Shown here in pieces: positions 52-14,161 of a stretch of DNA of 41,207 nt. Position 1 is the stretch's first letter, and each line of letters begins with the position of its first letter. Position numbers and translations under genes: made by a program. The notes under the pieces were generated by a model that was not told the DNA's origin, did not search any database, and was given only the letters and a program-made list of their open reading frames with translations. Origin of the DNA: a virus; the IMG/VR virus record IMGVR_UViG_3300023179_000218, positions 1-41,207 of that record; one strand, written 5' to 3'.

Positions 52-73
52 CTCCACCCCCAGCCGTCGGCAG

Positions 74-345: not shown

Positions 346-354
346 GGTAAGGAC
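320..354 (+). promoter_or_regulatory. Leaderless-type promoter for the gene at 355
   Basis: -35 TGAAAA at 320-325, 17-nt spacer, -10 TAAGGT at 343-348, six bases to ATG 355. It lies wholly inside the 3' end of the preceding gene. Confidence 0.8.
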
Positions 355-516
355 ATGAAGCCCCTCAGCAAGGAAGAGAAGGTCTCCAACCTGCGGTCCA
401 ACATCGAGTTCCTCCAGGAGCTCATCGAGGCCGGCGGCGACGAGGAGACGATCACCGTCTGGAAGCACATCAAGGCGCTGGCTGAGGTCGACCTGGCTCA
501 TCTGCTGGCCAAGTGA
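355..516 (+). CDS. Small hypothetical protein (53 aa), helical
   Basis: A short frame beginning M-K-P-L-S-K-E-E-K and ending L-L-A-K. It is almost entirely charged and leucine-rich, suggesting an alpha-helical protein; no family is recognised. Support comes from the promoter exactly upstream and from the stop: TGA 514-516 is the start of the next -35 (TGAAAA). Confidence 0.75.
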   Translation: MKPLSKEEKVSNLRSNIEFLQELIEAGGDEETITVWKHIKALAEVDLAHLLAK

Positions 517-548
517 AAAGCAACCCTTGAACAGGGTAAGGTAAGACC
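514..548 (+). promoter_or_regulatory. Leaderless-type promoter for the gene at 549
   Basis: -35 TGAAAA at 514-519 (sharing the upstream TGA stop), 17-nt spacer with inverted repeat ACCCT-TGAAC-AGGGT, -10 TAAGGT at 537-542, six bases to ATG 549. The whole element is identical to the one at 1954-1988. Confidence 0.85.
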
Positions 549-812
549 ATGAAGACCGTCAAGACCATCACCCGGACCTTCGCGGTCCTCGACAAGGCCT
601 TCCGCTACGGCTCGATCGGCGGTCGGTCGACCTACCCGAAGGGCATGGAGATGCGGATCGGCCGCGGCGGCTGGTACCTGGACGAGAACGGGGACGCGAT
701 CCTGCCGCACGGCATCTGCTACGGCGCGGCCCTGGTCGTCCCGGCGAAGTACTTCCACCTGGAGGTGGAGGAGGAGACCCACGCGGTCACCACCACCCGC
801 CGCAGGGCGTGA
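549..812 (+). CDS. Small hypothetical protein (87 aa)
   Basis: Unrecognised. It has a basic N-terminal stretch (MKTVKTITRTF) followed by a Gly/Tyr-rich segment (residues 20-60), ending in an acidic run (EVEEE) and a basic tail. There is no signal peptide or membrane segment. The stop TGA 810-812 forms the next -35. Confidence 0.75.
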   Translation: MKTVKTITRTFAVLDKAFRYGSIGGRSTYPKGMEMRIGRGGWYLDENGDAILPHGICYGAALVVPAKYFHLEVEEETHAVTTTRRRA

Positions 813-844
813 AAAGTCGATTCTGAAAGGGATAGGGTAAGACC
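810..844 (+). promoter_or_regulatory. Leaderless-type promoter for the gene at 845
   Basis: -35 TGAAAA at 810-815 (overlapping the upstream stop), 17-nt spacer, -10 TAGGGT at 833-838, six bases to ATG 845. Confidence 0.8.
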
Positions 845-1111
845 ATGAACAACACCTCCACCAAGCCCGCCAACGCCTCCCTCACCGCCTACCGCCTCGC
901 CCAGGTCCAGAAGGCCTTCGGCCACGCCGTCAAGGCGGCCGGCCACCTCGACTCCCGGACCCTGCCCCCGGACCTGGTGGCTGGCCTGACGGCCGCCCTG
1001 GGGGAGGTCAGCCGGTCCCTCCAGGCCCTGGAGGCCGCCGCCCCGGCCAAGAAGGTCCGGAGCCGGTCGGCCACGGTGGCCGCCCCGGCCGCCGCGGTCT
1101 CCTGCGACTGA
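845..1111 (+). CDS. Small hypothetical alanine-rich protein (88 aa)
   Basis: Alanine-rich and probably helical: residues 10-65 read as amphipathic helices (YRLAQVQKAFGHAVKAAGHL and later EVSRSLQALEAAAPAKK). The C-terminus is a low-complexity Ala/Val stretch. No family is recognised. It is followed by a strong hairpin (1118-1155) and is not directly joined to the next promoter by its stop codon. Confidence 0.75.
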   Translation: MNNTSTKPANASLTAYRLAQVQKAFGHAVKAAGHLDSRTLPPDLVAGLTAALGEVSRSLQALEAAAPAKKVRSRSATVAAPAAAVSCD

Positions 1112-1117
1112 GTCGGC

Positions 1118-1155
1118 CACGGCCCCTGGCGGTGAACAAGCCGCCAGGGGCCGTG
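1118..1155 (+). terminator. Strong hairpin that encloses the next promoter's -35
   Basis: A perfect 15-bp GC-rich stem (1118-1132 with 1141-1155) closes on the 8-nt loop TGAACAAG. The loop contains the next -35 (TGAACA, 1133-1138), and the -10 TACCAT starts at the base after the stem. There is no U-tract, so an intrinsic terminator is uncertain; it could equally be an operator or a cruciform. Confidence 0.55.
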
Positions 1156-1167
1156 TACCATCCGGCC
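1133..1167 (+). promoter_or_regulatory. Leaderless-type promoter for the gene at 1168
   Basis: -35 TGAACA at 1133-1138, 17-nt spacer formed entirely by loop end and stem arm, -10 TACCAT at 1156-1161, six bases CCGGCC to ATG 1168. TACCAT has no resemblance to a Shine-Dalgarno sequence, which favours the promoter reading. Confidence 0.7.
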
Positions 1168-1437
1168 ATGGCCCTCGACGCCGATCGGCTGAAGTCGTCC
1201 ATCCTCCAGGGCATCCTGGACGCTGGCATCAAGGACCCTAACGGGTCCTGGGAGTCCGTGTCGGCTGCCATCGCCCAAGCGGTGGTGGCCGAGGTGACGA
1301 CCTACGCCGAGGTCAAGGTGCCGCCGGGGTCCATCGCCCCGGGGCTGGTGTCTGTCGGGGCAGGACCAGCAGCCGCCCCGAGCCCGGCTCCCATTCCAGT
1401 CACCCAGCCCCCGGTGTCGCCGGGCGGCGTCTCCTGA
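1168..1437 (+). CDS. Small hypothetical protein (89 aa) with Pro/Ala-rich tail
   Basis: A longer frame exists from 1132, but the start is placed at ATG 1168, six bases after the TACCAT box. Residues 1-50 look helical (DADRLKSSILQGILDAGIKD, then SWESVSAAIAQAVVAEV). The last 40 residues are a Pro/Ala/Val low-complexity linker. No family is recognised. Confidence 0.7.
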   Translation: MALDADRLKSSILQGILDAGIKDPNGSWESVSAAIAQAVVAEVTTYAEVKVPPGSIAPGLVSVGAGPAAAPSPAPIPVTQPPVSPGGVS

Positions 1438-1453
1438 CCCCTGGGGCCTGAAG

Positions 1454-1488
1454 TGAAAAGCAACTCCTGAAAAGGATAAGGTAGGGAC
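1454..1488 (+). promoter_or_regulatory. Leaderless-type promoter for the gene at 1489
   Basis: -35 TGAAAA at 1454-1459, 17-nt spacer with inverted repeat TCCT-GAAA-AGGA, -10 TAAGGT at 1477-1482, six bases to ATG 1489. Confidence 0.8.
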
Positions 1489-1803
1489 ATGGACTTCAAC
1501 ACCACCCTCAACATCGCCCTCGACAACTTCGTGCAGCTCGCCCAGGCGCTCATCGACGCCCACATGACCCGGTGCTTCCCCAACCTCCCACGCGAGGTCC
1601 TGTCCCTGGACAGGGGCCGGCGGTACGTCCGGGTCGTCCGGGACAACGGCGTCCAGCGGTTCGCCTTCTGCTTCGTGGACGCCACGAACGGGGACGTCCT
1701 GAAGTCCGCGAGCTGGAAGGCTCCGGCGAAGCACGCCCGCGGGAACATCTTCGACCCCAACCCGGTGGCGGGGGTCGGCCCGTACGGCGCCAAGTACCTG
1801 TGA
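1489..1803 (+). CDS. Small hypothetical protein (104 aa)
   Basis: An N-terminal helical part (MDFNTTLNIALDNFVQLAQA) is followed by a short beta-like segment rich in Arg and Val (RRYVRVVRDNGVQRFAF, about residues 46-62) and a Gly-rich C-terminus. No catalytic motif is seen. The stop TGA 1801-1803 is part of the next -35. Confidence 0.75.
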   Translation: MDFNTTLNIALDNFVQLAQALIDAHMTRCFPNLPREVLSLDRGRRYVRVVRDNGVQRFAFCFVDATNGDVLKSASWKAPAKHARGNIFDPNPVAGVGPYGAKYL

Positions 1804-1836
1804 AAAGCGCCCCTTCGGGGGTGTAGGGTGGTCCCC
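1801..1836 (+). promoter_or_regulatory. Leaderless-type promoter for the gene at 1837
   Basis: -35 TGAAAA at 1801-1806, 17-nt spacer containing CCCC-TTC-GGGG, -10 TAGGGT at 1824-1829, seven bases to ATG 1837, the only 7-nt gap within the array. Confidence 0.75.
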
Positions 1837-1956
1837 ATGATCGACGCAATCACCGAGGTCATGGGGACCACCGCCGTGGTGGTCGGGACCTTCTTCGGGC
1901 CCATCATCGTGGCGGACATCGTGGCGGACATCGTCCGCTTCTTCCGCGGGCAGTGA
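1837..1956 (+). CDS. Small predicted membrane protein (39 aa)
   Basis: M-I-D-A-I start, then one hydrophobic segment (about residues 12-30, VVVGTFFGPIIVADIV) and a basic end (RFFRGQ), a typical single-pass miniprotein. It resembles the 36-residue product at 2271: both begin MIDAI, and both have G-P-I followed by V-A-D. Stop TGA 1954-1956 starts the next -35. Phage early miniproteins of this form often act on host membrane functions, but that is inference. Confidence 0.7.
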   Translation: MIDAITEVMGTTAVVVGTFFGPIIVADIVADIVRFFRGQ

Positions 1957-1988
1957 AAAGCAACCCTTGAACAGGGTAAGGTAAGACC
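1954..1988 (+). promoter_or_regulatory. Leaderless-type promoter for the gene at 1989
   Basis: -35 TGAAAA at 1954-1959, 17-nt spacer with ACCCT/AGGGT repeat, -10 TAAGGT at 1977-1982, six bases to ATG 1989. Base-for-base identical to the copy at 514-548. Confidence 0.85.
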
Positions 1989-2177
1989 ATGGAAACCCTC
2001 GACTACATCACGACGTGCACCTGTGACTCCTGCTCCGCCCACGGCCCGGTGGTCGTGCTCCACCACCTCGGCGCCCCGGTCCTGACGCAGTGCAAGCCGT
2101 GCATGCCGGCCGCCTTCGAGGCGGCGGCCCGGGAGGCGGTCGACCAGTGGCTGACCAGCTGGTTCGCAAGGGGGTGA
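1989..2177 (+). CDS. Small zinc-ribbon-like protein (62 aa)
   Basis: Two cysteine knuckles, C-T-C-D-S-C (about residues 10-15) and C-K-P-C (about 37-40), separated by about 21 residues of beta-type sequence, suggest one zinc-binding ribbon; a helical tail (FEAAAREAVDQWL) follows. Such minimal ribbons bind nucleic acid or protein. The assignment rests on the cysteine spacing only. Confidence 0.65.
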   Translation: METLDYITTCTCDSCSAHGPVVVLHHLGAPVLTQCKPCMPAAFEAAAREAVDQWLTSWFARG

Positions 2178-2235
2178 GCCAGTGAACGAGCGTGATCGCC
2201 TCCGGGCCGAGACCCTCGCCTGAGGCGGTCGTCAG

Positions 2236-2270
2236 TGAAAAGTCCCCCTCAAAGGAGGTACAGTAGTCCC
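2236..2270 (+). promoter_or_regulatory. Leaderless-type promoter for the gene at 2271
   Basis: -35 TGAAAA at 2236-2241, 17-nt spacer with CCT-CAA-AGG, -10 TACAGT at 2259-2264, six bases to ATG 2271. The spacer also contains AAAGGAGG, which looks like a Shine-Dalgarno sequence, but it ends 12 bases before the ATG. Confidence 0.7.
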
Positions 2271-2381
2271 ATGATCGACGCCATCATCGAAGCCGCCTCC
2301 CTCGGGGGGTTCATCTTCTCCGTCTTCGTCGGCCCCATCTACGTGGCCGACGCCGTCCGGGCCGTCCGGGGGTGGCTGTGA
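2271..2381 (+). CDS. Small predicted membrane protein (36 aa), paralogue of the gene at 1837
   Basis: Starts MIDAI and has a central hydrophobic segment (GGFIFSVFVGPIYVAD) and a short basic end. The shared start and the G-P-I-x-V-A-D core match the 39-residue protein at 1837. The end overlaps the start of the next gene in a GTGA arrangement, so the two are probably translated together. Confidence 0.65.
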   Translation: MIDAIIEAASLGGFIFSVFVGPIYVADAVRAVRGWL

Positions 2382-2632
2382 GCCGCCTCGTCCCCAGCGT
2401 CTCCTGGTCCTGCGACCGGGAGGGGCAGCTGTGGTCGGCCCAGGCCGACGGGGCGGCGGCAGGGTGGACCACCAGGAACGCCCCGGAGTCCTTCCAGGCG
2501 GCCCCGCCGCGGTCGGAGGTTCCGGTCACCTTCCACCACTCCTGCACCACGGCACGGGTCGACGGCGGCTCCACCGCCTCCTACCTGGCGGTCCAGGGCG
2601 GCCGGACCTACCTCCTCCGGGTCGCCCTGTAG
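2378..2632 (+). CDS. Hypothetical protein (84 aa), translationally coupled
   Basis: GTG 2378 overlaps the upstream TGA (GTGA), and no promoter element is present, so the gene is read with its neighbour. A slightly longer start at GTG 2372 is possible. The sequence is beta-like with several Trp and Ser residues (VSWSCDREGQLWSAQADG) and ends in TYLLRVAL. No family is recognised. Confidence 0.6.
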   Translation: MSRLVPSVSWSCDREGQLWSAQADGAAAGWTTRNAPESFQAAPPRSEVPVTFHHSCTTARVDGGSTASYLAVQGGRTYLLRVAL

Positions 2633-2654
2633 GGGAGGGGCCTACCTAGACGAG

Positions 2655-2792
2655 GTGAGCCTCACCTTCTACCTCGTCGGAATCCTCCTGGGCGCCTCCC
2701 AGGTCCTCCTGCCGGCCGCCGCCCTCTTCGCCTTCCAGTCCTGGCGGTCCGGCCGCCGCTCCTCCGTGAAAAAACCCCCACCGAAAGGGTAA
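2655..2792 (+). CDS. Small predicted membrane protein (45 aa)
   Basis: GTG 2655 lies six bases after TACCTA (2643-2648), a possible weak -10, though no TGAAAA-like -35 is at the right distance. The frame has one hydrophobic segment (TFYLVGILLGASQVLLPAAA) and a basic tail. The tail is encoded by the next promoter: the stop TAA (2790-2792) is the start of its -10 box, as for the gene at 109. Confidence 0.55.
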   Translation: MSLTFYLVGILLGASQVLLPAAALFAFQSWRSGRRSSVKKPPPKG

Positions 2793-2801
2793 GGTACAAG
2801 C
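2767..2801 (+). promoter_or_regulatory. Leaderless-type promoter for the gene at 2802
   Basis: -35 TGAAAA at 2767-2772, 17-nt spacer with CCC...GGG, -10 TAAGGT at 2790-2795, six bases to ATG 2802. Confidence 0.8.
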
Positions 2802-3047
2802 ATGCTCACCAAGCTCCCCCCCGCCACCTCCGCCTGCGCCGTCACGGCGCGCCTCCGCCAGCTCGGGTCGAAGCTGGCCGACGCCTTCACCGTCATCGAC
2901 TCCCTGGAGGCCGGAGGGGTCATGGACCCCGCCACGGTGTCCACCCTCCGGTCGGCCATGCGGGCCGCCGCCTCGGCCCAGCTGACGGCCTCTGCCTCGG
3001 CCCCGGCCATCCGCACCTACGTCAAGTCGCCGAAGGCCGAGGGCTGA
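2802..3047 (+). CDS. Small hypothetical alanine-rich protein (81 aa)
   Basis: Helical and rich in Ala, Ser and Leu (VTARLRQLGSKLADAFTVID, then TVSTLRSAMRAAASA). It has the same size and character as the product at 845, including a basic C-terminus, but no convincing alignment can be made by eye. A long hairpin follows it. Confidence 0.7.
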   Translation: MLTKLPPATSACAVTARLRQLGSKLADAFTVIDSLEAGGVMDPATVSTLRSAMRAAASAQLTASASAPAIRTYVKSPKAEG

Positions 3048-3052
3048 CCGGC

Positions 3053-3085
3053 CACCGCCGGGGGCCACACCGGCCCCCGGCGGTG
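3053..3085 (+). terminator. Strong hairpin running into the next -35
   Basis: A perfect 14-bp stem (3053-3066 with 3072-3085) with a 5-nt loop. The last two bases of the stem are the first two of the following -35 (TGAAAC, 3084-3089). There is no U-tract. Confidence 0.6.
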
Positions 3086-3118
3086 AAACCCCTCGCCCCG
3101 AAAGGGTACTATATCACC
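3084..3118 (+). promoter_or_regulatory. Leaderless-type promoter for the gene at 3119
   Basis: -35 TGAAAC at 3084-3089, 17-nt spacer, -10 TACTAT at 3107-3112, six bases to ATG 3119. This is the -10 closest to the bacterial consensus in the array. Confidence 0.8.
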
Positions 3119-3238
3119 ATGACCAACATCGAACTGTTCTGCGCCGCGGCGGAAGCCGCGTTCGGCGCCCTGGCGCTGGCCGTCTGCTCCCTCGGATTCA
3201 TCATCGGGGTCAACGAGGTGCTCCGGGGCGGGCGGTGA
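3119..3238 (+). CDS. Small predicted membrane protein (39 aa)
   Basis: One hydrophobic segment (about residues 13-31, AAFGALALAVCSLGFIIGV) between a short acidic N-terminus and a basic C-terminus (RGGR). Supported by promoter placement and by the stop TGA 3236-3238, which starts the next -35. Function unknown. Confidence 0.7.
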   Translation: MTNIELFCAAAEAAFGALALAVCSLGFIIGVNEVLRGGR

Positions 3239-3270
3239 AACCCGCCCCTCCGGGGGTGTAAGGTGATGAC
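3236..3270 (+). promoter_or_regulatory. Leaderless-type promoter for the gene at 3271
   Basis: -35 TGAAAC at 3236-3241, 17-nt spacer with CCCC-TCC-GGGG, -10 TAAGGT at 3259-3264, six bases to ATG 3271. Confidence 0.8.
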
Positions 3271-3513
3271 ATGGACAACACCGACCGAACCCTTCAGAAG
3301 ATCACCTGCGGCGTCGTCGGGTGCGGCTTCGCCGTCCTGACCGGGATGTTCATCGCGTGCATCCCAAACATGTGGGAGGACCTGAGCTGGTCCTCCCTCG
3401 GGGAGGTCTACACCTCCTCCGTGGTCGTCACCGTGATCTCGCTCGGCATCGTCTTCTTCGTCGCCGCGGCGGTGAACGGGCTGCGCACCGCCCTGTTCAA
3501 CGTCGAGCTGTGA
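3271..3513 (+). CDS. Small predicted membrane protein (80 aa), two segments
   Basis: Two hydrophobic stretches (residues about 12-31 with several Cys and Gly, and about 50-68, VVVTVISLGIVFFVAAAV) are separated by a Trp-rich loop (MWEDLSWSSLGEVY). The two-segment layout is holin-like in size, but the position among array genes and the lack of an adjacent lysin argue against a lysis role. Stop TGA 3511-3513 joins the next -35. Confidence 0.7.
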   Translation: MDNTDRTLQKITCGVVGCGFAVLTGMFIACIPNMWEDLSWSSLGEVYTSSVVVTVISLGIVFFVAAAVNGLRTALFNVEL

Positions 3514-3545
3514 AAAGCTCCCCTCCGGGGGTGTAGGATAAGACC
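3511..3545 (+). promoter_or_regulatory. Leaderless-type promoter for the gene at 3546
   Basis: -35 TGAAAA at 3511-3516, 17-nt spacer with CCCC-TCC-GGGG, -10 TAGGAT at 3534-3539, six bases to ATG 3546. Confidence 0.85.
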
Positions 3546-3818
3546 ATGAACACCGTTCGAATCGCCAACGCCGGAACCCGTCACGCTGTCCCCGTCTTCT
3601 CCGGCGAGCTCTTCGCCTGGACCCCCACCTCCGGGGTCACCGAGGCCTCCACCCTGGGCTTCGAGGTCGGCCTGTGGCCCAACGTGGTCGGGGTCGTCTC
3701 TCACCGGACCGGGGCCGAGAAGCGGTTCGTCTTCAGCCACCTGGCCAACCGCGGCACGGTGGCCATCTACCACGAGTCCCTGAAGCGGGAGCTCGTCCTC
3801 GAGGTGCTGAACACGTGA
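3546..3818 (+). CDS. Hypothetical protein (90 aa), one of a paralogous pair
   Basis: Paralogue of the 90-residue protein at 5224: residues about 17-39 (PVFSGELFAWTPTSG and the following VTEASTLG) are identical, and the DNA there is nearly identical too. The remainder keeps S-H-R-T-G and an L-E-x-L-N end but has otherwise diverged. The fold looks beta-rich. Function unknown. Confidence 0.75.
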   Translation: MNTVRIANAGTRHAVPVFSGELFAWTPTSGVTEASTLGFEVGLWPNVVGVVSHRTGAEKRFVFSHLANRGTVAIYHESLKRELVLEVLNT

Positions 3819-3849
3819 AAAGCTCCCCCTCGTGGGGTAAGGTAAGACC
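3816..3849 (+). promoter_or_regulatory. Leaderless-type promoter for the gene at 3850
   Basis: -35 TGAAAA at 3816-3821, spacer of 16 nt with CCC...GGG, -10 TAAGGT at 3838-3843, six bases to ATG 3850. Confidence 0.8.
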
Positions 3850-4269
3850 ATGGAAACCGACATCATCTTCCTCAGCCCCCGTCCCTCCCTCACCGTGGAG
3901 GGGACGGGGAGCCGCTCCCTGGGCCGGTGCTACTCCGAGGCGACGTACCGGGTCACCAGCCGCCAGCCCCTGGACCGCAAGACCCTCAAGGCCCTGTCCG
4001 AGGCGGGCGTCCTGGGCTACGGCCAGGAGTTCGGTGTCATGTACGCCACGGCGGCGGGTGGGTCCGAGCCCGTCCCCGAGACCGTGGAGTGGAACACCAG
4101 GCCGGAACCCACCGGGTGGGACGATGTCCCGGCGGTCCAGGTGGTCCGGGGCACCACCACCCCGACGGGTGCGCCGGCCATCGACACCTACACCGGCCTC
4201 CCGTACGGCCCCCAGCGGATGCCCTTCTACGTCTACAACGTGGTGCGCCGGGTGGACTCGTCCGACTGA
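3850..4269 (+). CDS. Hypothetical protein (139 aa)
   Basis: The longest product of the array. It has a beta-type N-terminus (TDIIFLSPRPSLTVEG), a short helix (RKTLKALSEAGVLGYG), and a Pro/Thr-rich second half ending YNVVRRVDSSD. No catalytic motif or family is recognised. The gap between its stop and the next -35 is eight bases. Confidence 0.75.
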   Translation: METDIIFLSPRPSLTVEGTGSRSLGRCYSEATYRVTSRQPLDRKTLKALSEAGVLGYGQEFGVMYATAAGGSEPVPETVEWNTRPEPTGWDDVPAVQVVRGTTTPTGAPAIDTYTGLPYGPQRMPFYVYNVVRRVDSSD

Positions 4270-4277
4270 GTCGGGCG

Positions 4278-4312
4278 TGAAAAACCCGGCGGCGGGGGTG
4301 TAGGATAAGACC
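4278..4312 (+). promoter_or_regulatory. Leaderless-type promoter for the gene at 4313
   Basis: -35 TGAAAA at 4278-4283, 17-nt spacer with CCC...GGG, -10 TAGGAT at 4301-4306, six bases to ATG 4313. Confidence 0.8.
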
Positions 4313-4534
4313 ATGAACAACGCCAACACCCCCGCCACCGTCGTCGTCCTCACCCGCTCCGGCGGCCGCGTCTTCCGCGTGTTCACGGTCACCTCCCTGG
4401 ACGAGGTCGTCACGGTCTGGAAGAACCACCGCGGACACGACATCGGCATCTTCGAGGACCCCACCGGGAAGACCGGGCTGCTGTGGACCTACTTCCCCGA
4501 GGAGGACGACCGCCTCCTCCGGTCCCGGTGGTGA
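4313..4534 (+). CDS. Small hypothetical protein (73 aa)
   Basis: Alternating hydrophobic residues suggest a small beta sheet (TPATVVVLTRSGGRVFRVFTV), then an acidic and Trp-containing C-terminal half (TGLLWTYFPEEDDRLL). No family recognised. The next gene starts three bases after its stop and lacks a promoter, so the pair is probably bicistronic. Confidence 0.7.
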   Translation: MNNANTPATVVVLTRSGGRVFRVFTVTSLDEVVTVWKNHRGHDIGIFEDPTGKTGLLWTYFPEEDDRLLRSRW

Positions 4535-4537
4535 CCG

Positions 4538-4891
4538 GTGCCACGACGTTCCTCTCAGAATAATCGCAACCCGGTCGGTGGGGACAACAGCGCCCCCGCC
4601 GCCTGGGAATATTCTAGATGGAACCACGACCTCAGGTGGGCCGACGTCCGGGTCGGCGACACCTTCGCATCGAGCGCGGAGCACGAGGAGGTCAACCCGG
4701 GCAGCCCCTTCGTCTACATCGTCACAGCTGTGAACCATGAGACCGTGCGCCTCGGGCCGCGCGGGTCGGAGCGCGTCGACGTCGTCATCGACGTGGCGAT
4801 GAACGAGAGCGGGCACGTGCGTCACACGCAGTGGTCCGGGCCGCCGGAAGACCTCTACTACAACGACGTGCTGGTGGCCCGGGGCCTGTGA
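4538..4891 (+). CDS. Hypothetical protein (117 aa), second gene of a pair
   Basis: Begins at GTG 4538, just after the stop of the gene at 4313. The first 30 residues are polar, Asn-rich and encoded by noticeably less GC-rich DNA than the rest (around 4550-4625). A beta-type core follows (DVRVGDTFASS, then PFVYIVTAVNHETVRLG), resembling small SH3-like barrels, but without enough to assign one. Stop TGA 4889-4891 joins the next -35. Confidence 0.7.
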   Translation: MPRRSSQNNRNPVGGDNSAPAAWEYSRWNHDLRWADVRVGDTFASSAEHEEVNPGSPFVYIVTAVNHETVRLGPRGSERVDVVIDVAMNESGHVRHTQWSGPPEDLYYNDVLVARGL

Positions 4892-4923
4892 AAAGTCCCC
4901 ACTGAAGGGGGTAAGGTAGGGAC
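4889..4923 (+). promoter_or_regulatory. Leaderless-type promoter for the gene at 4924
   Basis: -35 TGAAAA at 4889-4894, 17-nt spacer with CCCC-ACTGAA-GGGG, -10 TAAGGT at 4912-4917, six bases to ATG 4924. Confidence 0.85.
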
Positions 4924-5169
4924 ATGAACGACATCAAGCTTCTCACCAACGAGCTGGACGGCAAGCGGATCGCCTACTCTTCGCAGACGGTGTTCGTCGT
5001 GCAGGTGGGCAAGGGACCCAAGGGTTCGTACAAGACCCGGTACGTCTTCACGGGCGACCTGCCCCAAGCGGTCAAGTACTACAACTGCATCAACATCGGG
5101 TACGGGTACAAGAAGCGCCTCCTGATGCCCTCGAGCAAGAACCCGGTCCTGGCCAAGTCGGCCTCGTGA
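4924..5169 (+). CDS. Small hypothetical basic protein (81 aa)
   Basis: Lysine- and tyrosine-rich, with a beta-like middle (RIAYSSQTVFVVQVGKGPKG) and a basic C-terminus (YGYKKRLLMPSSKNPVLAKS). Unrecognised. Its stop TGA (5167-5169) overlaps a TGAAAA that no longer belongs to a complete promoter (see 5167-5189). Confidence 0.75.
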   Translation: MNDIKLLTNELDGKRIAYSSQTVFVVQVGKGPKGSYKTRYVFTGDLPQAVKYYNCINIGYGYKKRLLMPSSKNPVLAKSAS

Positions 5170-5189
5170 AAAGTCCCCCCGCGACTGAG
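5167..5189 (+). other. Vestigial promoter fused to the 3' end of a lost cassette
   Basis: TGAAAAGTCCCC begins like the copy at 4889 but continues into CCGCGACTGA with no -10. The segment CCCCGCGACTGA followed by the next -35 and spacer matches the end of the gene at 5567 and its following promoter (about 5745-5779). This looks like a deletion joining one -35 to the last codons of another cassette. Confidence 0.6.
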
Positions 5190-5223
5190 TGAAAAGCAGC
5201 CACAGGAAAGGTAAGATAAGAAC
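5190..5223 (+). promoter_or_regulatory. Leaderless-type promoter for the gene at 5224
   Basis: -35 TGAAAA at 5190-5195, 16-nt spacer, -10 TAAGAT at 5212-5217, six bases to ATG 5224. The -35 and spacer match those at 5757-5779 apart from one base of length. Confidence 0.75.
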
Positions 5224-5496
5224 ATGAACACCATCCGCACCACCGGCCGCCACTCCGAGATCCCCGTCTTCTCCGGCGAGCTGTTCGCCTGGACCCCCAC
5301 CTCCGGGGTCACCGAGGCCTCCACCCTGGGGATGAAGCCCGGCGCCCGGATGTTCCCCGCCATCATCCACGTCCAGTCCCACCGGACCGGCGTCGTCCGC
5401 AAGTTCGTCTGGGTCAACTACGGGGCGTCGGACTCGGCCCTCTACTCAGAGTACATGGGGGAGCAGGACCTGCGCCTCGAGATCCTCAACCACTGA
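5224..5496 (+). CDS. Hypothetical protein (90 aa), second of the paralogous pair
   Basis: Shares start (MNT-I/V-R), the identical PVFSGELFAWTPTSG block and length with the gene at 3546. The two differ most in residues 40-50 and 65-80. Near-identity at the DNA level in the conserved block means either recent duplication or gene conversion. Function unknown. Confidence 0.75.
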   Translation: MNTIRTTGRHSEIPVFSGELFAWTPTSGVTEASTLGMKPGARMFPAIIHVQSHRTGVVRKFVWVNYGASDSALYSEYMGEQDLRLEILNH

Positions 5497-5503
5497 GGTG
5501 ATT

Positions 5504-5533
5504 CACCCCCGGCGGGCCTTCCCGCCGGGGGTG
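5504..5533 (+). terminator. Strong hairpin running into the next -35
   Basis: A perfect 13-bp GC-rich stem (5504-5516 with 5521-5533) around the tetraloop CCTT. Its last two bases are the first two of the next TGAAAA (5532-5537). The A-run of that -35 follows the stem on the plus strand, so there is no U-tract. Confidence 0.6.
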
Positions 5534-5566
5534 AAAAGCCCCCGCTGGAGGGGGTAGGGTAAGGAC
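5532..5566 (+). promoter_or_regulatory. Leaderless-type promoter for the gene at 5567
   Basis: -35 TGAAAA at 5532-5537, 17-nt spacer with CCCC...GGGG, -10 TAGGGT at 5555-5560, six bases to ATG 5567. Confidence 0.8.
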
Positions 5567-5755
5567 ATGAAGCTCACCACCGAACAATCCGCTGCCCTCG
5601 TCCGCCTCGAGCTGTGGTGCAAGGCCACCGCGGAGGACGTGGTCAAGGTCCGCCAGCTGCCGACCGACCCCGAGTTCCAGCCCTTCATGCAGGAGCTGGT
5701 CAGGGTGGCCGACCTCATGACCCAGGTCGGCCTGATGCCGCCGCCCCGCGACTGA
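5567..5755 (+). CDS. Small hypothetical helical protein (62 aa)
   Basis: An all-helix pattern (TTEQSAALVRLELWCKATAE, then FMQELVRVADLMTQVG), ending M-P-P-P-R-D. The last codons (CCCCGCGACTGA) are duplicated, without the gene, at 5177-5188. Function unknown. Confidence 0.7.
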   Translation: MKLTTEQSAALVRLELWCKATAEDVVKVRQLPTDPEFQPFMQELVRVADLMTQVGLMPPPRD

Positions 5756-5756
5756 A

Positions 5757-5791
5757 TGAAAAGCAGCCACAGGAAAGGGTAGGGCAAGACC
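5757..5791 (+). promoter_or_regulatory. Leaderless-type promoter for the gene at 5792
   Basis: -35 TGAAAA at 5757-5762, 17-nt spacer, -10 TAGGGC at 5780-5785, six bases to ATG 5792. This is the only copy in the array whose final -10 base is not T. Confidence 0.7.
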
Positions 5792-6022
5792 ATGAACAGC
5801 GCCTCCCGCCAAGAGTACACCCAGGCCATCAACGCCCTGGCCGATACCATCAACCAGGAGACCGGCAAGATCGCGGACCCGGTCCGGTTCAAGCCCGCCC
5901 TCCGGGTCCTGGACATGTTCGTGGGGGGCTACCCCAAGGACGTGGCCATGGGCCTGGTCGAGGCTGGGATGGACGGGGACCTGGCGGCCGATATCGCGTT
6001 CGACCTCCAGGGCTGGCTGTGA
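5792..6022 (+). CDS. Small hypothetical protein (76 aa)
   Basis: Helical throughout: RQEYTQAINALADTINQETG, a Pro/Arg turn, then ALRVLDMFVGGYPKDVAMG and an acidic end (EAGMDGDLAADIAFDL). Unrecognised. Stop TGA 6020-6022 starts the next -35. Confidence 0.75.
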   Translation: MNSASRQEYTQAINALADTINQETGKIADPVRFKPALRVLDMFVGGYPKDVAMGLVEAGMDGDLAADIAFDLQGWL

Positions 6023-6054
6023 AAAGCTCCTCCCCGAAAGGGTAAGGTAGGGAC
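6020..6054 (+). promoter_or_regulatory. Leaderless-type promoter for the gene at 6055
   Basis: -35 TGAAAA at 6020-6025, 17-nt spacer with CCC-CGAAA-GGG, -10 TAAGGT at 6043-6048, six bases to ATG 6055. Confidence 0.85.
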
Positions 6055-6321
6055 ATGAACAACGTCGCCATCCTCGACCAGCCGCAGTCCTACGACAACA
6101 ACGGCCGCGAGTGCCGCATCCTGGCGGCCCTTCAGGAGCTGCCCCTGACCCGGACGGTCTCCTTCAGCCGCGGCATGAACCGCATGCAGACCTGGCGGAT
6201 CAGCGGCATCGCCCCCCAGGACATGGAGGCCGTCAAGGCCCTGCTGGCGGCCCCGGCCTACTGGGTCTTCTACCTGGAGGTCCACGGGGAAGAGGTCGAG
6301 TGGCGCAACCTGGGCTGCTGA
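6055..6321 (+). CDS. Small hypothetical protein (88 aa)
   Basis: A mixed alpha/beta pattern: CRILAALQELPLTRTVSF, a Met/Trp-rich middle (RGMNRMQTWRISG), then a helix (PQDMEAVKALLAAPAYW) and an acidic strand. No family recognised. Its stop is six bases before the next -35. Confidence 0.75.
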   Translation: MNNVAILDQPQSYDNNGRECRILAALQELPLTRTVSFSRGMNRMQTWRISGIAPQDMEAVKALLAAPAYWVFYLEVHGEEVEWRNLGC

Positions 6322-6326
6322 GCCCA

Positions 6327-6361
6327 TGAAAAGCTCCTCGCGGAAAGGGTAAGGTAGGGAC
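6327..6361 (+). promoter_or_regulatory. Leaderless-type promoter for the gene at 6362
   Basis: -35 TGAAAA at 6327-6332, 17-nt spacer, -10 TAAGGT at 6350-6355, six bases to ATG 6362. Confidence 0.8.
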
Positions 6362-6571
6362 ATGGCAAACATGAGCTACTGCAGGTTCGAGAACACCTCC
6401 AACGACCTGCTGGCCTGCGTCCGGGCCCTGGAGGAGGTCATCAACGACCCGGAGGCGGAGCCCCTCTCCCCCTCCGAGAACGGGTGCTCGTACGTGATGG
6501 TGGACCTGTGCCACCGGTACCTGGCGCTGCACGCGGAGCTGCAGCGCCTGCAGGCCGCCCCCGGGGAGTGA
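6362..6571 (+). CDS. Conserved phage/bacterial hypothetical protein (69 aa), MSYCRFENT type
   Basis: The N-terminus M-A-N-M-S-Y-C-R-F-E-N-T followed by N-D-L-x-x-C and a helix (VRALEEVIND) is a pattern I recognise from small conserved proteins of unknown function in phages and bacteria. The middle has N-G-C-S-Y, and the end is a leucine-rich helix. Three Cys (in SYCRF, LLACV and GCSY) might bind metal. Stop TGA 6569-6571 joins the next -35. The family has no assigned function that I can name. Confidence 0.75.
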   Translation: MANMSYCRFENTSNDLLACVRALEEVINDPEAEPLSPSENGCSYVMVDLCHRYLALHAELQRLQAAPGE

Positions 6572-6603
6572 AAAGATCCCCCTGGCGGGGGTAAGGTAAG
6601 GCC
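6569..6603 (+). promoter_or_regulatory. Leaderless-type promoter for the gene at 6604
   Basis: -35 TGAAAA at 6569-6574, 17-nt spacer with the strong repeat CCCCC-TGGC-GGGGG, -10 TAAGGT at 6592-6597, six bases to ATG 6604. Confidence 0.85.
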
Positions 6604-6837
6604 ATGAAGACCACCTACATCATCGAGACCCCGGCGCAGCGCAACCGCGAGACCGGGGGCGACTCCACCTACTACGCAGTCTACGCCTGCTGGCGCTCCG
6701 AGGAGCTGGGCTGGCCGCAGTCCGAGCTCTACAGCTTCTACGACACCCTGGCGGAGGCCGAGGCTGGGGTCCGCGAGGCGGAGGCCTACGACGCATGGCA
6801 CCCGCGTGAAAAGGACGGCGACAAGGGGGTAGGGTGA
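6604..6837 (+). CDS. Small hypothetical protein (77 aa) overlapping the next promoter
   Basis: Begins MKTTYIIET, continues with aromatic-rich sequence (STYYAVYACWRSEELGW) and an acidic helix (TLAEAEAGVREAEAYDAW). The last 12 codons read through the next -35 and spacer, and TGA 6835-6837 starts at the last base of its -10 box. Unrecognised. Confidence 0.7.
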   Translation: MKTTYIIETPAQRNRETGGDSTYYAVYACWRSEELGWPQSELYSFYDTLAEAEAGVREAEAYDAWHPREKDGDKGVG

Positions 6838-6841
6838 GGGC
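6807..6841 (+). promoter_or_regulatory. Leaderless-type promoter for the gene at 6842
   Basis: -35 TGAAAA at 6807-6812, 17-nt spacer without an evident inverted repeat, -10 TAGGGT at 6830-6835, six bases to ATG 6842. Confidence 0.75.
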
Positions 6842-7030
6842 ATGAAGAACGCCAAGAGCAGCAGGGTCCCGGGGCGCTCCTCCCTGGCGGAGGGCGAGGC
6901 GGTGGAGTGGATGGGCGACACGTGGCGCGTGCAGGCGCTCGACGGTGAGAGCATCACGCTCGAGGACCGCGACGGCCTGGGCATCACGGTGAGCGCGTGG
7001 GCGCGCGAGGTGGCGCCTCTTCGCCTGTGA
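6842..7030 (+). CDS. Small hypothetical protein (62 aa), SH3-like pattern
   Basis: After a basic N-terminus, residues 18-60 alternate short strands and turns (EAVEWMGDTWRVQALDGESI, then LEDRDGLGITVSAWAREVAP). This resembles a small SH3-type barrel; the match is only by pattern. Stop TGA 7028-7030 starts the last promoter of the array. Confidence 0.7.
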   Translation: MKNAKSSRVPGRSSLAEGEAVEWMGDTWRVQALDGESITLEDRDGLGITVSAWAREVAPLRL

Positions 7031-7062
7031 AAAGGCGGGACCGGAGGGGGTAAGGTAAGACC
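7028..7062 (+). promoter_or_regulatory. Leaderless-type promoter for the gene at 7063
   Basis: -35 TGAAAA at 7028-7033, 17-nt spacer, -10 TAAGGT at 7051-7056, six bases to ATG 7063. Last copy of the array. Confidence 0.8.
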
Positions 7063-7206
7063 ATGAAGAGCGACGGCAAGAAGGCGGCGCCCCGGAACGC
7101 GGTGGTCCTGGGCATGATCCTCACGAAGAAGCACGCGAAGTTCCGCCACCGCGCCGACCGGCGGCCGAAGGACGCCCGGAGGGACGAGCGGCGGGCGGGC
7201 TGGTGA
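7063..7206 (+). CDS. Small very basic protein (47 aa), last gene of the array
   Basis: Starts MKSDGKKAAPRNAVVLGM and ends with an Arg/Lys-rich tail (about 17 Arg+Lys in total). Such a charge suggests nucleic-acid or polyanion binding, which is inference. The reading frame stops just before the long non-coding region. Confidence 0.65.
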   Translation: MKSDGKKAAPRNAVVLGMILTKKHAKFRHRADRRPKDARRDERRAGW

Positions 7207-7263
7207 GGGGGGTCGGTGGGGGCTGCGACGGGGCCCCCTTCGGGACGGCTGCCAGGGGGTGGC

Positions 7264-7303
7264 AGGGGGCCCCCTAAAAAGGTCCCAAAATAGGGGGCCC
7301 CCT
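7264..7303. repeat. Two copies of the palindrome AGGGGGCCCCCT
   Basis: Perfect 12-bp palindromes at 7264-7275 and 7292-7303, starts 28 bp apart, separated by an A-rich stretch. They could be hairpins at the end of the array transcript or a protein-binding pair. Confidence 0.7.
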
Positions 7304-7367
7304 GGGCCCGGGGCCCTGCCAACCTGTGTGGGGCTTTTCACCGGGGCGGCCGCCCATGCCCGCCCAC

Positions 7368-7574
7368 AAAATTCCCGGGACTTTTCCCGAACAGCACTGC
7401 CCCGCTGCCCTCCAGAATTTCCCGGGCACCTACCCAGGTCCCCCAGCCCCTCTGCCCTCCAGAATCTCCCGGACGCTGACCCCCTCCGGGGCCGCCGCCC
7501 CTCCCGAAAATTTCCCGGGAATTTTTTTGGTCCGGGGCCGCCGCCGTGTCCCGGAAATTTCCCGGGAAAATTTT
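7368..7574. repeat. Five TTTCCCGGGA-type palindromes with a 46-47 bp period
   Basis: The CCC/GGG centres fall at about 7376, 7423, 7470, 7516 and 7563, giving spacings of 47, 47, 46 and 47. Copies 4 and 5 are flanked by A and T runs (AAAATTTCCCGGGAATTTT type). Intervening DNA is also partly repeated: TGCCCTCCAGAAT before copies 2 and 3, and CCGGGGCCGCCGCC before copies 4 and 5. Copy 3 is degenerate (TCTCCCGGAC). Confidence 0.75.
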
Positions 7575-7601
7575 GCCCCGGTGGCCGATAGGTAGGGCCC
7601 T
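7565..7601 (+). promoter_or_regulatory. Possible leaderless promoter for the gene at 7602
   Basis: A GGAAAA -35-like box (7565-7570) lies inside the fifth palindrome, 18 nt before TAGGTA (7589-7594), and seven bases then lead to ATG 7602. It deviates from the array type at the final -10 base. Confidence 0.45.
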
Positions 7602-7808
7602 ATGAAGCTGACAGCTGAGTCCGCAGTCCGCCGCCTCGTCAGGGAGGTTGCCCGCCAGGAGCTGGCCCTGCAGGTCCTTCAGGGGGCCGGCCTGACCCCC
7701 CAGGAGCTACAGGCCCTCTTGGCTGCCGCCCTGCCGGACGGTGGTCCCGTAGAGGAGGGGACGGGACACCTGGCCGCCGCAGTGGCCAAGGTCCTTGACG
7801 GTCCTTGA
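7602..7808 (+). CDS. Small hypothetical helical protein (68 aa)
   Basis: Helix-forming throughout (SAVRRLVREVARQELALQVL, then TPQELQALLAAALPDGG and HLAAAVAKVLDGP). No family recognised. It directly follows the palindrome region, so it might be a regulator that binds there, but there is no clear helix-turn-helix. The next frame overlaps its last 14 bases. Confidence 0.6.
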   Translation: MKLTAESAVRRLVREVARQELALQVLQGAGLTPQELQALLAAALPDGGPVEEGTGHLAAAVAKVLDGP

Positions 7809-8043
7809 CTACCTGGCCGACAACCCGTCCCTGGCCGCCGCCCTGGGGCTCGGGGCTGCTGCCCTGGCCGGTCACTCTAGGGGCGACGTCCCCCCAGGCC
7901 TCCAGGACCTGGTGGCCGCTGCCGCAGCCGGCCTGGCCGGTGGCCACCTCCACAGGGTCCTCAACCCCCGGCCTGGGGCCACCCCTCCCAGGGGTCCCAC
8001 CCCCTGGAAGGGCTCTGTCTTCGGACCGGGCCCCCGCCGGTGA
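7795..8043 (+). CDS. Small hydrophobic alanine/glycine-rich protein (82 aa)
   Basis: Starts at TTG 7795 inside the end of the previous gene (overlap suggests coupling). Residues 10-55 are Ala/Leu/Gly-rich (LAAALGLGAAALAGHSRG, then LVAAAAAGLAGGHL), possibly one or two weak membrane helices; the tail is Pro-rich. Could be a membrane protein; the rare start codon lowers confidence. Confidence 0.5.
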   Translation: MTVLDYLADNPSLAAALGLGAAALAGHSRGDVPPGLQDLVAAAAAGLAGGHLHRVLNPRPGATPPRGPTPWKGSVFGPGPRR

Positions 8044-8756: not shown

Positions 8757-9800
8757 TCACAGCAGCTGCGTCGGTCCGAAGAGCAGGATGGCCGTGATGG
8801 GCGCCACGTCGCCGCCGGACCCGTCGTTCTTGGTTATGACCACCAGGCCGGCCACGGGGCTGGTCCCACCAAGACCGCCCCACGGCGGGGAGCTGTTGGG
8901 GGCGTCGTTGAGGGACGCCGCGGTGACGTACCTCGTGATGCTGTGGGCCACCGAGCTGTTGGGGTAGCTATTGGAGACGTCCTGCGTCCAGCCGGAGACG
9001 AGGCCGCCGTCGCCGAGGCCCAGCAGGGCCATCCCGGCGTAGTGGGTGCCGGCTGCGTATGGCGACACGTCGAAGCCCGTCAGCTGCCACTGCTTCCCTG
9101 CGTCGAAAGCGTTCGACAGGGCGGCGTCCCAGATGGTGTAGACGTAGGTGCCGAGGGCCTGTGAGTACTGGGAGCTGAACTGGGCCACGCTTGGGTCAGT
9201 CAGGTCGTAGGACGGCCCGCCCACCACCGACAGGGCGAAGGCACCGGACGACCCCTCGCCGAAGTAGTCGAGCGGGCCGACGTCTGGCAGGGCCGCAGCC
9301 AGCTCGGCAGCGGTGACGAGCAGGAGGCCGCTGAGGTCGGACCCACTGCCGCCGCCGGGCAGGGCCACCGCGGTGACGATAAAGACGCCCTTGGCCCCCG
9401 ACCAGTCTGGTGTCAGAGAGATCGTGACCGGGTCTGCGAGGTTGACGTTGCCCCCCAGGCCGTCCTTCCCGAATCCTGTCAAGTGGGCCCCACCCACCAC
9501 GCCTGCCCCTGCGTTGGTGGCCCAGGGCTCAGTCGTCCAGCTGGTCATGGTGATGGTGGTGTCACCGCCGATGTTGGCTGGGTCGAAGGCGGGGTCGACG
9601 ATGGTGTAGATCGGCGCCCCGGACAGGCTCGATAGCACTGAACTGTAGCTGACGTCCCCCGCCCCGAAGGTCTTGGACCCGGCCAGGGATGTCCATGTGA
9701 GGTGGAAGTTGGACACGTAGACCGGCGTGAAGACCCTGGTGACCCCGCCGCCGCCCTTGAACTTGACAGCCCCACCAGGCCCAGTTATTCTAATCGTCAT
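8757..9800 (-). CDS. Probable virion protein with Gly-rich start (347 aa)
   Basis: Starts MTIRITGPGGAVKFKGGGG, then Ser/Thr/Gly-rich sequence with many aromatic residues and almost no Lys. It has the look of a secreted or surface beta protein. The short start motif (I-x-G-x-G-G-A-x-x-x-x-G-G) is shared with the product at 9845, its upstream neighbour. AGGGGAC lies before the ATG as a possible ribosome binding site. No enzyme motif is seen; role in the tail or capsid surface is inferred. Confidence 0.6.
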   Translation of the reverse strand: MTIRITGPGGAVKFKGGGGVTRVFTPVYVSNFHLTWTSLAGSKTFGAGDVSYSSVLSSLSGAPIYTIVDPAFDPANIGGDTTITMTSWTTEPWATNAGAGVVGGAHLTGFGKDGLGGNVNLADPVTISLTPDWSGAKGVFIVTAVALPGGGSGSDLSGLLLVTAAELAAALPDVGPLDYFGEGSSGAFALSVVGGPSYDLTDPSVAQFSSQYSQALGTYVYTIWDAALSNAFDAGKQWQLTGFDVSPYAAGTHYAGMALLGLGDGGLVSGWTQDVSNSYPNSSVAHSITRYVTAASLNDAPNSSPPWGGLGGTSPVAGLVVITKNDGSGGDVAPITAILLFGPTQLL

Positions 9801-10661: not shown

Positions 10662-11051
10662 ATGAGAGTCCTGGTCCTCGACGACATCAAGCACCGCCAC
10701 GACACCTTCGATCGAACCTACGACGGTCCTGACGACGAGGTGGTCCACTGCTACAGGTACTTCCACTTCCTGGACATGCTCCTCACCTGCAGGTGGGACC
10801 TGATCCACCTGGACCACGACCTGGGCGACTTCGTGGACAACGCCGACACCTACGTGGATGGCTGGGGCAACTCCCAGGAGTACAATGGGGGGCACGCCGC
10901 CATGAGGGTCTGCGAGCTGGATGACGACTGCCTGCCCGACCGCGTCATCGTCCACTCGGTCAACCCTGTCGGGGCCAGGGCCATGGTGTCGCTCCTGCAG
11001 CGGAGGGGCGTACCTGTCACGTGGGAGCCCTTTGGAGACCTGCCACCCTGA
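10662..11051 (+). CDS. cREC-type receiver-domain protein (129 aa)
   Basis: Seen: M-R-V-L-V-L-D-D at the start (acid pocket of a receiver fold), then W-D-L-I-H-L-D-H-D-L-G at about residues 45-55, N-G-G-H-A-A-M, and V-I-V-H-S-V-N-P-V-G-A followed by M-x-x-L-L-x-x-x-G. This combination, with paired His residues, matches the cyclic-phosphate processing receiver (cREC) family, which was predicted from comparative genomics to act on cyclic phosphate ends of nucleotides or RNA. It fills the entire protein. Its own promoter is of the array type. A phage role in RNA end repair is inference. Confidence 0.75.
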   Translation: MRVLVLDDIKHRHDTFDRTYDGPDDEVVHCYRYFHFLDMLLTCRWDLIHLDHDLGDFVDNADTYVDGWGNSQEYNGGHAAMRVCELDDDCLPDRVIVHSVNPVGARAMVSLLQRRGVPVTWEPFGDLPP

Positions 11052-12344: not shown

Positions 12345-13859
12345 ATGAAGAAAAACAGTGTTAGCAAGCTGCTGCAGAGTGAGGCCGCCACATCAAACTA
12401 CGTCGACTCGCTGGTAGAGGAGTCCGAGGCGGCAGAGAGGGCGGCAGCCATCCGCCGCGTCAGGCTGGTGTCAGAGGCCCGACTCGCTTCGATGGTGTCT
12501 GCGTACAAGAAGAGGACCCTGGCTGAGGGCCGCTCGCTTGCGAGCGACGAGCTGGCCCGTAAGATCGTTAGTGAGTCTGCCCGCCTAGAGCGCCTTGTCA
12601 TCATGGAGGCCCTGGCAGGGTCGTCTGGGAAGGAGATCAAGGCGGCCTACAAGGGCATCTTCGACGCGATGCAGCACATCGCGAAGGTGAGCCCAGAGGT
12701 TAAAAATCTCTTCGACAAAGACCACGAGAATTTCCAGCTGGCCATGAACGCCTCTGCACCGGCTGACTCCTCGTCCTCGGACCTCGACAAGTTCCGCAAA
12801 AAGCTAGAGTCCATGCTGCCCAACATGTTGCAGCTGACTGCGGCGATGCGCAATGTGGCGATCAGCCTGGACGGCGGCGCCCTCGGCAACATAGTGTCGC
12901 AGTTGGGCCCTGACAAGACCCTCAGTAAGGGCTTCGCTGAACTCCTCGCTTCCACTAAGGAGGTGGCAGCCGACGCGGAGTTAGACAGGGTACCCATGAA
13001 GAAGTCTTTCCTGTCGCGTGCTGCGGGCAAAATTTCAAAACTCTTCGGCAAGTCAGAGGGTGTCGTCGACATGGAGAAGAAGTTCACAGACACGTTGGAG
13101 GCGATCGTCACGCGGGCTGCCCCAGGGGTGATGAAGAAGGACGTGGCCCACAAGTTCTCGCTCGACATACTCCTTAACACCACCCCCACGACTCTCTCAG
13201 ACGCCTTCAATACGTTTGATACGGAGGTAACCCAGCACGTCGACAACAAGTTCCTGCAGGCGTCTGCCATGGCCGCTTCGAAGGTGTCTTTCGGCAAGGG
13301 CCTGTCTGATATCATCAGCGGTGGTAGCAGCGTGACAAGAGGGGACGGCGGTAGCCGCAGCGTCGTAGGAGCTGCCGGAGCTACCGGAGGCACCCAGGAA
13401 CCTTCAAAACCAGAGGCGTCAGCGTCGGATGACGCCGCAGCCAAGGTGGCTTCCTCTGTCTCGACGGCCCTGTCCGACATAAAGAATGCGTTCATTAAAA
13501 AGTCTGCCGCCTCGAAGCGGAACCCAAAGTTCTTTGATCCAGTCGTCAAGGCGCTTGACAGCGTCGGCCTGCTACGTGGAGTTAACCTCACTGAGGCTGG
13601 CGGCCGCTTCAAGTCAAACGTTAACGTCGACGCTGTCCTCGACGCCATCAAGAACGAGCCTGTCATCTCTGTCGCCTACTCGAAGGCCCATGGGTGGAAG
13701 GGCGTTTCAGCTGATGAGATCAAGTCCGACAGGGACGTCCGCAGCGTCGTCAGCTTCCTCATCAGCATGGGGGTCGTCAAGACGCCGCCGCAGCAGGCCA
13801 ACGAGTCTGCAGACGCCGGCCAGCTGAAGAGGTGGATGAAGATCGCTGGGCTGTCCTGA
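12345..13859 (+). CDS. Unknown 504-residue protein
   Basis: Not recognised. Residues 1-110 are charged helices (SESARLERLVIMEALAGS), 110-330 continue helical with Lys-rich parts, and about 340-375 are a low-complexity Gly/Ala/Ser/Thr linker. A C-terminal domain (about 390-504) follows, with VVKALDSVGLLRG and VSVAYSKAHGWKG-like sequence ending KRWMKIAGLS. The linker and two-domain plan suit an internal virion or scaffold-type protein, or a phage-specific DNA-binding factor. Codon use is like its neighbours. No array-type promoter precedes it. Confidence 0.65.
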   Translation: MKKNSVSKLLQSEAATSNYVDSLVEESEAAERAAAIRRVRLVSEARLASMVSAYKKRTLAEGRSLASDELARKIVSESARLERLVIMEALAGSSGKEIKAAYKGIFDAMQHIAKVSPEVKNLFDKDHENFQLAMNASAPADSSSSDLDKFRKKLESMLPNMLQLTAAMRNVAISLDGGALGNIVSQLGPDKTLSKGFAELLASTKEVAADAELDRVPMKKSFLSRAAGKISKLFGKSEGVVDMEKKFTDTLEAIVTRAAPGVMKKDVAHKFSLDILLNTTPTTLSDAFNTFDTEVTQHVDNKFLQASAMAASKVSFGKGLSDIISGGSSVTRGDGGSRSVVGAAGATGGTQEPSKPEASASDDAAAKVASSVSTALSDIKNAFIKKSAASKRNPKFFDPVVKALDSVGLLRGVNLTEAGGRFKSNVNVDAVLDAIKNEPVISVAYSKAHGWKGVSADEIKSDRDVRSVVSFLISMGVVKTPPQQANESADAGQLKRWMKIAGLS

Positions 13860-14128: not shown

Positions 14129-14161
14129 AAAGCTGGCCCAGCCTGGTGTATGGTAGCTACC
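14126..14161 (+). promoter_or_regulatory. Leaderless-type promoter for the DNA ligase gene
   Basis: -35 TGAAAA at 14126-14131, 17-nt spacer, -10 TATGGT at 14149-14154, seven bases to ATG 14162. It is the same element as in the left array and sets the ligase start. Confidence 0.75.

Follow-up and report, generated by a model that had tools for sequence, protein, structure and literature searches.

The DNA analysed here, referred to as the window, is the whole of a 41,207-base IMG/VR record, which is classed as linear and is probably a fragment of a larger genome. By PHROGs, the right part of the window carries genes for distant relatives of T4-type baseplate proteins and, at 40523–41170, for a late-sigma-like protein. 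Relatives of the baseplate wedge protein are found at 42–49% identity in metagenomic contigs, and at about 31% identity in six named records, among them phages of Flavobacterium and Microcystis. At the DNA level, searches against named phages with the whole window or with local stretches gave no match, and no relative was found for the window protein encoded at 12345–13859. The window also carries genes for a cREC_REC domain protein (10662–11051), an ATP-dependent DNA ligase (14150–15511) and a beta-1,4-glycosyltransferase (16368–18023), a tRNA-Asp (19399–19468), and a 1016-aa gene on the minus strand (23362–26412) with long collagen-like tandem repeats (24512–25920).

The left part is occupied by a run of tiny genes on the plus strand (73–7065, and also at 10626), most of which have their own near-identical promoter, GTGAAAAG-N14-GGTAAGGT, placed about 6 nt before the ATG. 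This pattern occurs 20 times in the window and 0–1 times in each of 10 shuffles, and the TGA within GTGAAAAG often doubles as the stop codon of the preceding gene. We take a TANNNT box this near the start codon to suggest leaderless genes and an actinobacterial host. A scan of viral contigs with the early-promoter pattern gave no match; a looser form was later found in a 114-kb record (G001), which has 36 promoters of this type at 94,388–111,610 on the minus strand and elsewhere.

A gap of 395 bp (7207–7601), the second largest among the gaps between listed genes of the window, is flanked by co-directional genes and contains no likely gene, in agreement with the earlier note, which had described a non-coding block at this place. 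It holds a GC-rich palindrome block, a linker and an array of five repeat copies (Table 1).

Table 1. Features in and directly after the gap at 7207–7601 (window coordinates; cores are CCCGGG or CCCGGA)
Feature	Position	Strand	Core	Core centre	Remarks
GC block, GGGGCCCC-type palindromes	7230..7316	.			two perfect inverted arms of 14 nt, 7263–7276 and 7291–7304
Linker, counterpart of the relatives' CATACTCWGTGGG...CTWAG linker	7314..7366	+			alignment A2; beats 296/300 shuffles; R1-negative
Copy 1, AAAATTCCCGGGACTTTT	7368..7385	.	7374–7379	7376.5	57 nt past element start
Copy 2, palindrome limited to core	7414..7432	.	7421–7426	7423.5	
Copy 3, core degenerate, CCCGGA	7461..7479	.	7468–7473	7470.5	
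Copy 4, AAAATTTCCCGGGAATTTT	7507..7525	.	7514–7519	7516.5	half-site 12 bp upstream
Copy 5, GAAATTTCCCGGGAAAATTT	7554..7573	.	7561–7566	7563.5	half-site 12 bp upstream
Late-promoter-like octamer GATAGGTA	7587..7594	+			ahead of gene at 7602
Downstream gene, N-terminus MKLTAESAVRRLVRE	7602..7808	+			frame broken by 10-bp duplication at 7790–7809

The five cores are 47, 47, 46 and 47 bp apart, and the even phasing claimed for them earlier is borne out by direct-repeat identity. At a lag of 47 the stretch 7354–7588 is identical to itself at a fraction of 0.553, above the best lag of 30–79 in every one of 1000 dinucleotide shuffles (mean 0.365, maximum 0.430), and a repeat unit of 46/47 bp was also detected by TRF. 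The flanks are partly repeated, as had been noted, with 84% identity over 37 nt between copies 2 and 3 and 77% over 39 nt between copies 4 and 5. The description of the sites as five palindromes holds in part. Over the 14 central bases, 6, 4, 4, 6 and 6 of the 7 possible pairs match in copies 1–5, so that copies 1, 4 and 5 form clean dyads and copies 2 and 3 are degenerate and palindromic at the core alone. The phasing of palindromicity is by itself unremarkable: the block scores at best 26 for five sites, with a period of 36, a value equalled or exceeded in 7 of 200 shuffles. Since the lag-47 signal is strong and palindromicity alone is not, the array is best regarded as direct repeats in tandem, each with a dyad at its core. 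The arrangement expected of iterons, evenly spaced direct repeats outside coding sequence, is present here in five copies at 46–47 bp. The G+C content of the array is 0.66 vs 0.58 for the record, with AT-richness confined to the arms of the dyads.

All six occurrences of TTCCCGGR in the window fall inside the array. A CRISPR reading was dropped in view of the short cores, the repeated flanks and the lack of a recognised cas gene in the set of window proteins searched. Relatives sought in viral contigs by the exact array pattern (TTCCCGGGAA twice, gap 32–42) gave four matches, none related by layout: L089 appears to be coding and L090 and L091 contain a different repeat, ACGGTTCCC. In the unrelated viral record L092, the palindrome TTCCCGGGAA occurs three times at steps of exactly 21 bp (204–255).

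In the GC block, GGGGCC/GGCCCC occurs seven times in 7230–7310, the sole such cluster of the window. At a threshold of at least four occurrences in 200 bp, one cluster each is found in the window, G001, G008, G012, G013 and G033, and none in the remaining 20 of the 26 records compared. In G008, G012, G013 and G033 the block comes after a metallopeptidase-vWA gene (DUF2201, by a Pfam match of the G012 protein), which is part of a MoxR-vWA pair; pairs of this sort are described in jumbo phages in the available part of a published account (PMC7824862). An alignment of the metallopeptidase-vWA protein was used to fetch further loci. Among the best 80 of 381 relatives, a GC block by a slightly looser motif is present in 15 loci, downstream of the vWA gene in 14 and upstream in L226, and is absent from the loci below 40% G+C. 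Some of the 15 are records seen twice (L215 is G033, L216 is G013, L247 is G008 and L291 is G012). Repeated TGTAAC/GTTACA-type palindromes lie upstream of the GC block in L112 (about 9690–9800; G008), L216 (about 7908–7995) and L212 (about 2755–2830).

When a position weight matrix (PWM) of the five copies was run over the window and 25 other records, the best cluster outside the window was in G008 (129399–129577, score 42.0), followed by G012 (143336–143369, 29.1), and no further record among the 26 exceeded 26.9; both clusters directly follow a block of GGGGCCCC palindromes. Alignment of 13 relatives gave a common order of GC-block end, CATACTCWGTGGG, a G-rich stretch, CTWAG and then a dyad of the CTCGAG, CCCGAG, CCCGGG or CTCGGAG type, with a T-tract in most. 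A profile of these 13 sequences, with the window left out, recovered 13 of 13 from 4.2 Mb and independently found L226 (E 1.4e-15). A model built from 14 relatives on sequence only, R1, was run on 57 records and matched 20 of them exactly once each (E <= 6e-5) and the other 37 not at all; five of the positive records lie outside the training set (G043, G052, G059, G056 and G058). G040 has one further, partial match (E 0.84), which corresponds to a second copy in its array, 45 bp further on. The 20 records represent 18 distinct cases, because G033 repeats G013 and G058 repeats G056, the latter two being identical over the stretch read. Seven R1-positive records are 242–289 kb long; two other records above 200 kb, G064 and G067, have no element by R1.

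The layout of the element is a GC block, a linker that hardly varies in length and at least one dyad with AT arms, in 18 distinct records of uncultured, far-T4-like phages. In all 18 the GC block is richer, and the array poorer, in G+C than the surrounding DNA. The position of the element shifts relative to neighbouring genes among the phages, and nine of the 20 elements lie within 10% of a contig end (G008, G013, G033, G039, G041, G042, G052, G053 and G059; binomial P 0.01, KS P 0.13), which could reflect genome ends or assembly. A scan of viral contigs for the element pattern gave seven matches, four of them known elements by R1 and three (L309, L312 and L313) attributed to chance; five matches in genome_contigs (L315–L319) are R1-negative and were likewise taken as chance. 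No cultured phage carrying the element was found in the searches made. Blastn of named phages with two elements gave one weak match each, one to a Vibrio phage and the other to LR756508; the latter proved to be chance on inspection and is R1-negative. Flavobacterium phage immuto and Microcystis phage Mel-JY01 are R1-negative as well. No description of such an element was met in the literature by title and abstract, a coverage that leaves out most subscription journals and preprints.

A phased array in relatives had been named as a check on the original observation, and was sought by scanning 20–150 bp past copy 1 in the 18 distinct relatives (duplicate G058 dropped). The best second site lies at 45–47 bp in six (L213, L214, L216, L217, L220 and G008), at 76–82 bp in five (L219, L222, L228, G012 and G056) and elsewhere in seven; in G043, G059 and L226 it is no better than in shuffled sequence. 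With a chance of about 4% per relative, the enrichment at 44–48 bp has P = 4e-5, for a matrix and range picked after seeing the sequences. L212 and G012 have an additional site at 47, and the steps in G008 are 46, 45 and 64. Among elements with several sites, 45–47 bp is the commonest spacing. A half-site 12 bp before the core, as in copies 4 and 5 of the window, is also present in G012, L214, L216 and L217. The repeat layout is in this sense kept in the relatives, and the spacing seen in the R1-negative window recurs among them.

As for the window itself, both R1 and the 13-sequence profile fail to detect its copy of the element, and R1 gives no match in G001 at E <= 1. The profile run on the window alone has its best places within the array (7578–7550, E 0.88, and 7517–7528, E 4.8), and on G001 its best place adjoins the single GC block of that record (E 0.21). 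The linker and copy 1 of the window resemble those of 18 relatives more than 296 of 300 shuffles do. In a sliding comparison on the plus strand the five best places all fall within 7276–7526; stretches on the minus strand of the next gene score as high or higher. The distance from element start to copy 1, 57 nt, falls within the 55–64 nt of the relatives. Because the window linker is too diverged for R1, membership rests on architecture, and based on order, distance, uniqueness, dyad type and spacing combined, the window very probably belongs to the element family.

The gene that follows the element varies. Its N-terminus in the window resembles the MRITES-type starts of proteins encoded after the element in G008, L237 and G056; a winged-helix-like protein is encoded there in L213, L214, L217, L225 and G052, and nearby in G059, and other genes are found elsewhere. 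The 10-bp duplication in the window gene (GGTCCTTGAC twice in tandem) shifts the frame between 7602–7808 and 7795–8043; it could have arisen by mutation or misassembly, or the shift could be a programmed one. The predicted winged-helix gene closely follows the element in six of 18 relatives (loci L213, L214, L217, L225, L293 in G052 and L294 in G059, the G059 gene having been found independently at E 1.7e-16) and is absent elsewhere in the DNA searched, including the window, where no initiator candidate adjoins the array. The predicted structure has a pLDDT of 80 and a pTM of 0.69. It has no Foldseek match at E <= 0.001 and the protein has no convincing Pfam or PHROGs family; almost every VIA-align neighbour of the model is a DNA-binding protein of the winged-helix kind (Z reaching 8.4, with an rmsd of 2.6 over 72 residues), a likeness that may reflect merely a common fold.

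The octamer ahead of the window gene belongs to a motif, RATASRTA, with six occurrences in the window (7587, 8068, and on the minus strand 10383, 21088, 26430 and 34889). All six closely precede a start codon in their own orientation, the motif having been derived from these very places, and shuffles contain 3.25 on average. It resembles the T4 late promoter TATAAATA. T4-type late promoters need no -35 box. The proposal that copy 5 overlaps the -35 of the gene at 7602 is consequently doubtful, since the octamer, which starts 13 bp past the end of copy 5, looks like a promoter of this type.

Taken together, the varying downstream gene, the lack of a conserved RNA fold and the mobile position point to a genome-level cis-acting DNA site rather than the operator of one gene. 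Among sites of this kind, an element that occurs once per genome, is non-coding and independent of any gene, carries phased dyads and, in the relatives, has an AT-rich stretch is most like an iteron origin, and our best explanation, put forward tentatively from sequence comparison, is that proteins dock at the array, as part of a conserved element present in one copy per genome that acts as an iteron-type origin of replication.

The nearest parallels are the phage and satellite origins described in the available parts of the published accounts. T4 oriE likewise has a cluster of direct repeats at even spacing in a T4-type phage, and relatives keep them in syntenic regions (PMC3016281). The oriE repeats are 12 nt long, unlike the units of about 47 bp with dyad core, GC block and linker found here, and the two are likened by layout, not by sequence homology. 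Short cis elements with an AT-rich unwinding stretch, to which the AT-rich array of the relatives may correspond, also characterise T4 oriF and oriG (PMC3016281); those work through a middle promoter and an R-loop, whereas here the repeats define the element and no such promoter was identified. The satellite PLE origin, of RepA_N type, likewise consists of non-coding direct repeats that are semi-palindromic, their inverted arms enclosing an A/T tract (PMC7145576, PMC8263062). There, three poly-A iterons of about 30 bp are shown to bind RepA, in contrast to the up to five sites at 46–47 bp in the present family, where the core is G+C and the arms are A/T, and a RepA_N protein was not recognised among the window proteins searched. 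Several points weigh against an origin. The copy in the window is missed by both the relatives' profile and R1, its array is not AT-rich overall, it has no initiator candidate beside it, and some relatives (G043, G059 and L226) have no significant second site. In the T4 account, as far as the available text goes, the several origins share no common motif, and the iterons, conserved as they are in syntenic regions, have an ill-defined and unproven role and were never tied to origin activity (PMC3016281). Cumulative GC skew, which had been suggested as a check, is uninformative: in the long records G012 and G013 the skew is monotonic throughout, with no change at the element, which lends the proposal no support and does not decide the matter either way.

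The most serious competitor, which we consider rather unlikely, is a regulatory region where cooperative binding of a repressor or an activator to the phased dyads controls the downstream late gene or an early/late switch, with autoregulation by the winged-helix protein in some relatives. The array does divide the early-type gene run of the window from genes with late-type octamers, with one octamer close to copy 5, and the winged-helix gene, the product of which has a predicted DNA-binding fold, begins at the last site in L213 and L214. An operator would need neither a GC block nor a linker, however, and would be expected at several promoters and ahead of a conserved gene, whereas the element occurs once per record and its downstream gene is not conserved. 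Lower still we place a centromere-like partition site or a DNA-packaging site, where phased dyads would load a complex that positions or cuts the genome; this is improbable but would agree with a single copy per genome, with the phasing, with the excess near contig ends and with the winged-helix protein having the centromere-binding TubR as one of its neighbours in fold. The tubC-type centromeres are arrays of sites bound by TubR, a small winged-helix protein, as the present arrays may be bound by one. A TubZ-like gene was not recognised, nor any other motor gene, among the window proteins searched, and the link consists of a fold match alone, for a protein that the window lacks. T4-type phages use headful packaging, with no strict site, which together with the weakness of the end bias argues against packaging. 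The earlier note had proposed an initiator, partition or cooperative-repressor site; the spacing kept in a good part of the relatives, the single copy and the non-coding location give partial support to a site of this general kind, and the data separate none of the three.

Two further explanations have little probability. Dyads acting as hairpins, in a terminator or another RNA-level element between transcription units, would account for GC-rich inverted repeats where the early gene run ends and for the T-tracts after the linker in relatives, but the RNA-level results make this a long shot: RNAalifold, applied to 14 relatives over the core region as far as copy 1, gave 0 consensus pairs, Rfam gave no match at gathering score for the window and five relatives, the folding energy of the whole gap is ordinary (z -0.77), and the plus strand has no terminator-like site. 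The shared flanks of copies 2 and 3 and of copies 4 and 5 are what a recent, functionless tandem duplication of a short stretch would leave behind; a neutral origin of the array is nevertheless highly improbable given that dyad, layout and often spacing recur in distant relatives.

If the element is an iteron-type origin, dimers of a phage DNA-binding protein would occupy the dyads, which are of the AAATTT-CCCGGG/CTCGAG-AAATTT type, one to five per element and often 45–47 bp apart. Their even phasing would allow the bound dimers to assemble into a single complex, upon which the AT-rich arms, or in relatives the whole array, would melt and the replisome would load. The GC block may fold or serve as a barrier. 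In the phage studied here, the array would have grown to five sites through tandem duplication.

On a yet more tentative footing, we suggest that these elements may represent a new family of single-copy origins, defined by a GC block and phased dyads, in many uncultured jumbo and near-jumbo far-T4-like phages. One subgroup would use the winged-helix protein as initiator, and the phage with the five-site version probably has an actinobacterial host. If this is true, a recognisable layout present once per genome across diverged giant phages would mark the place from which replication is organised, or else partition or packaging, and the element would make the organisation of replication in uncultured viruses testable on cloned DNA.
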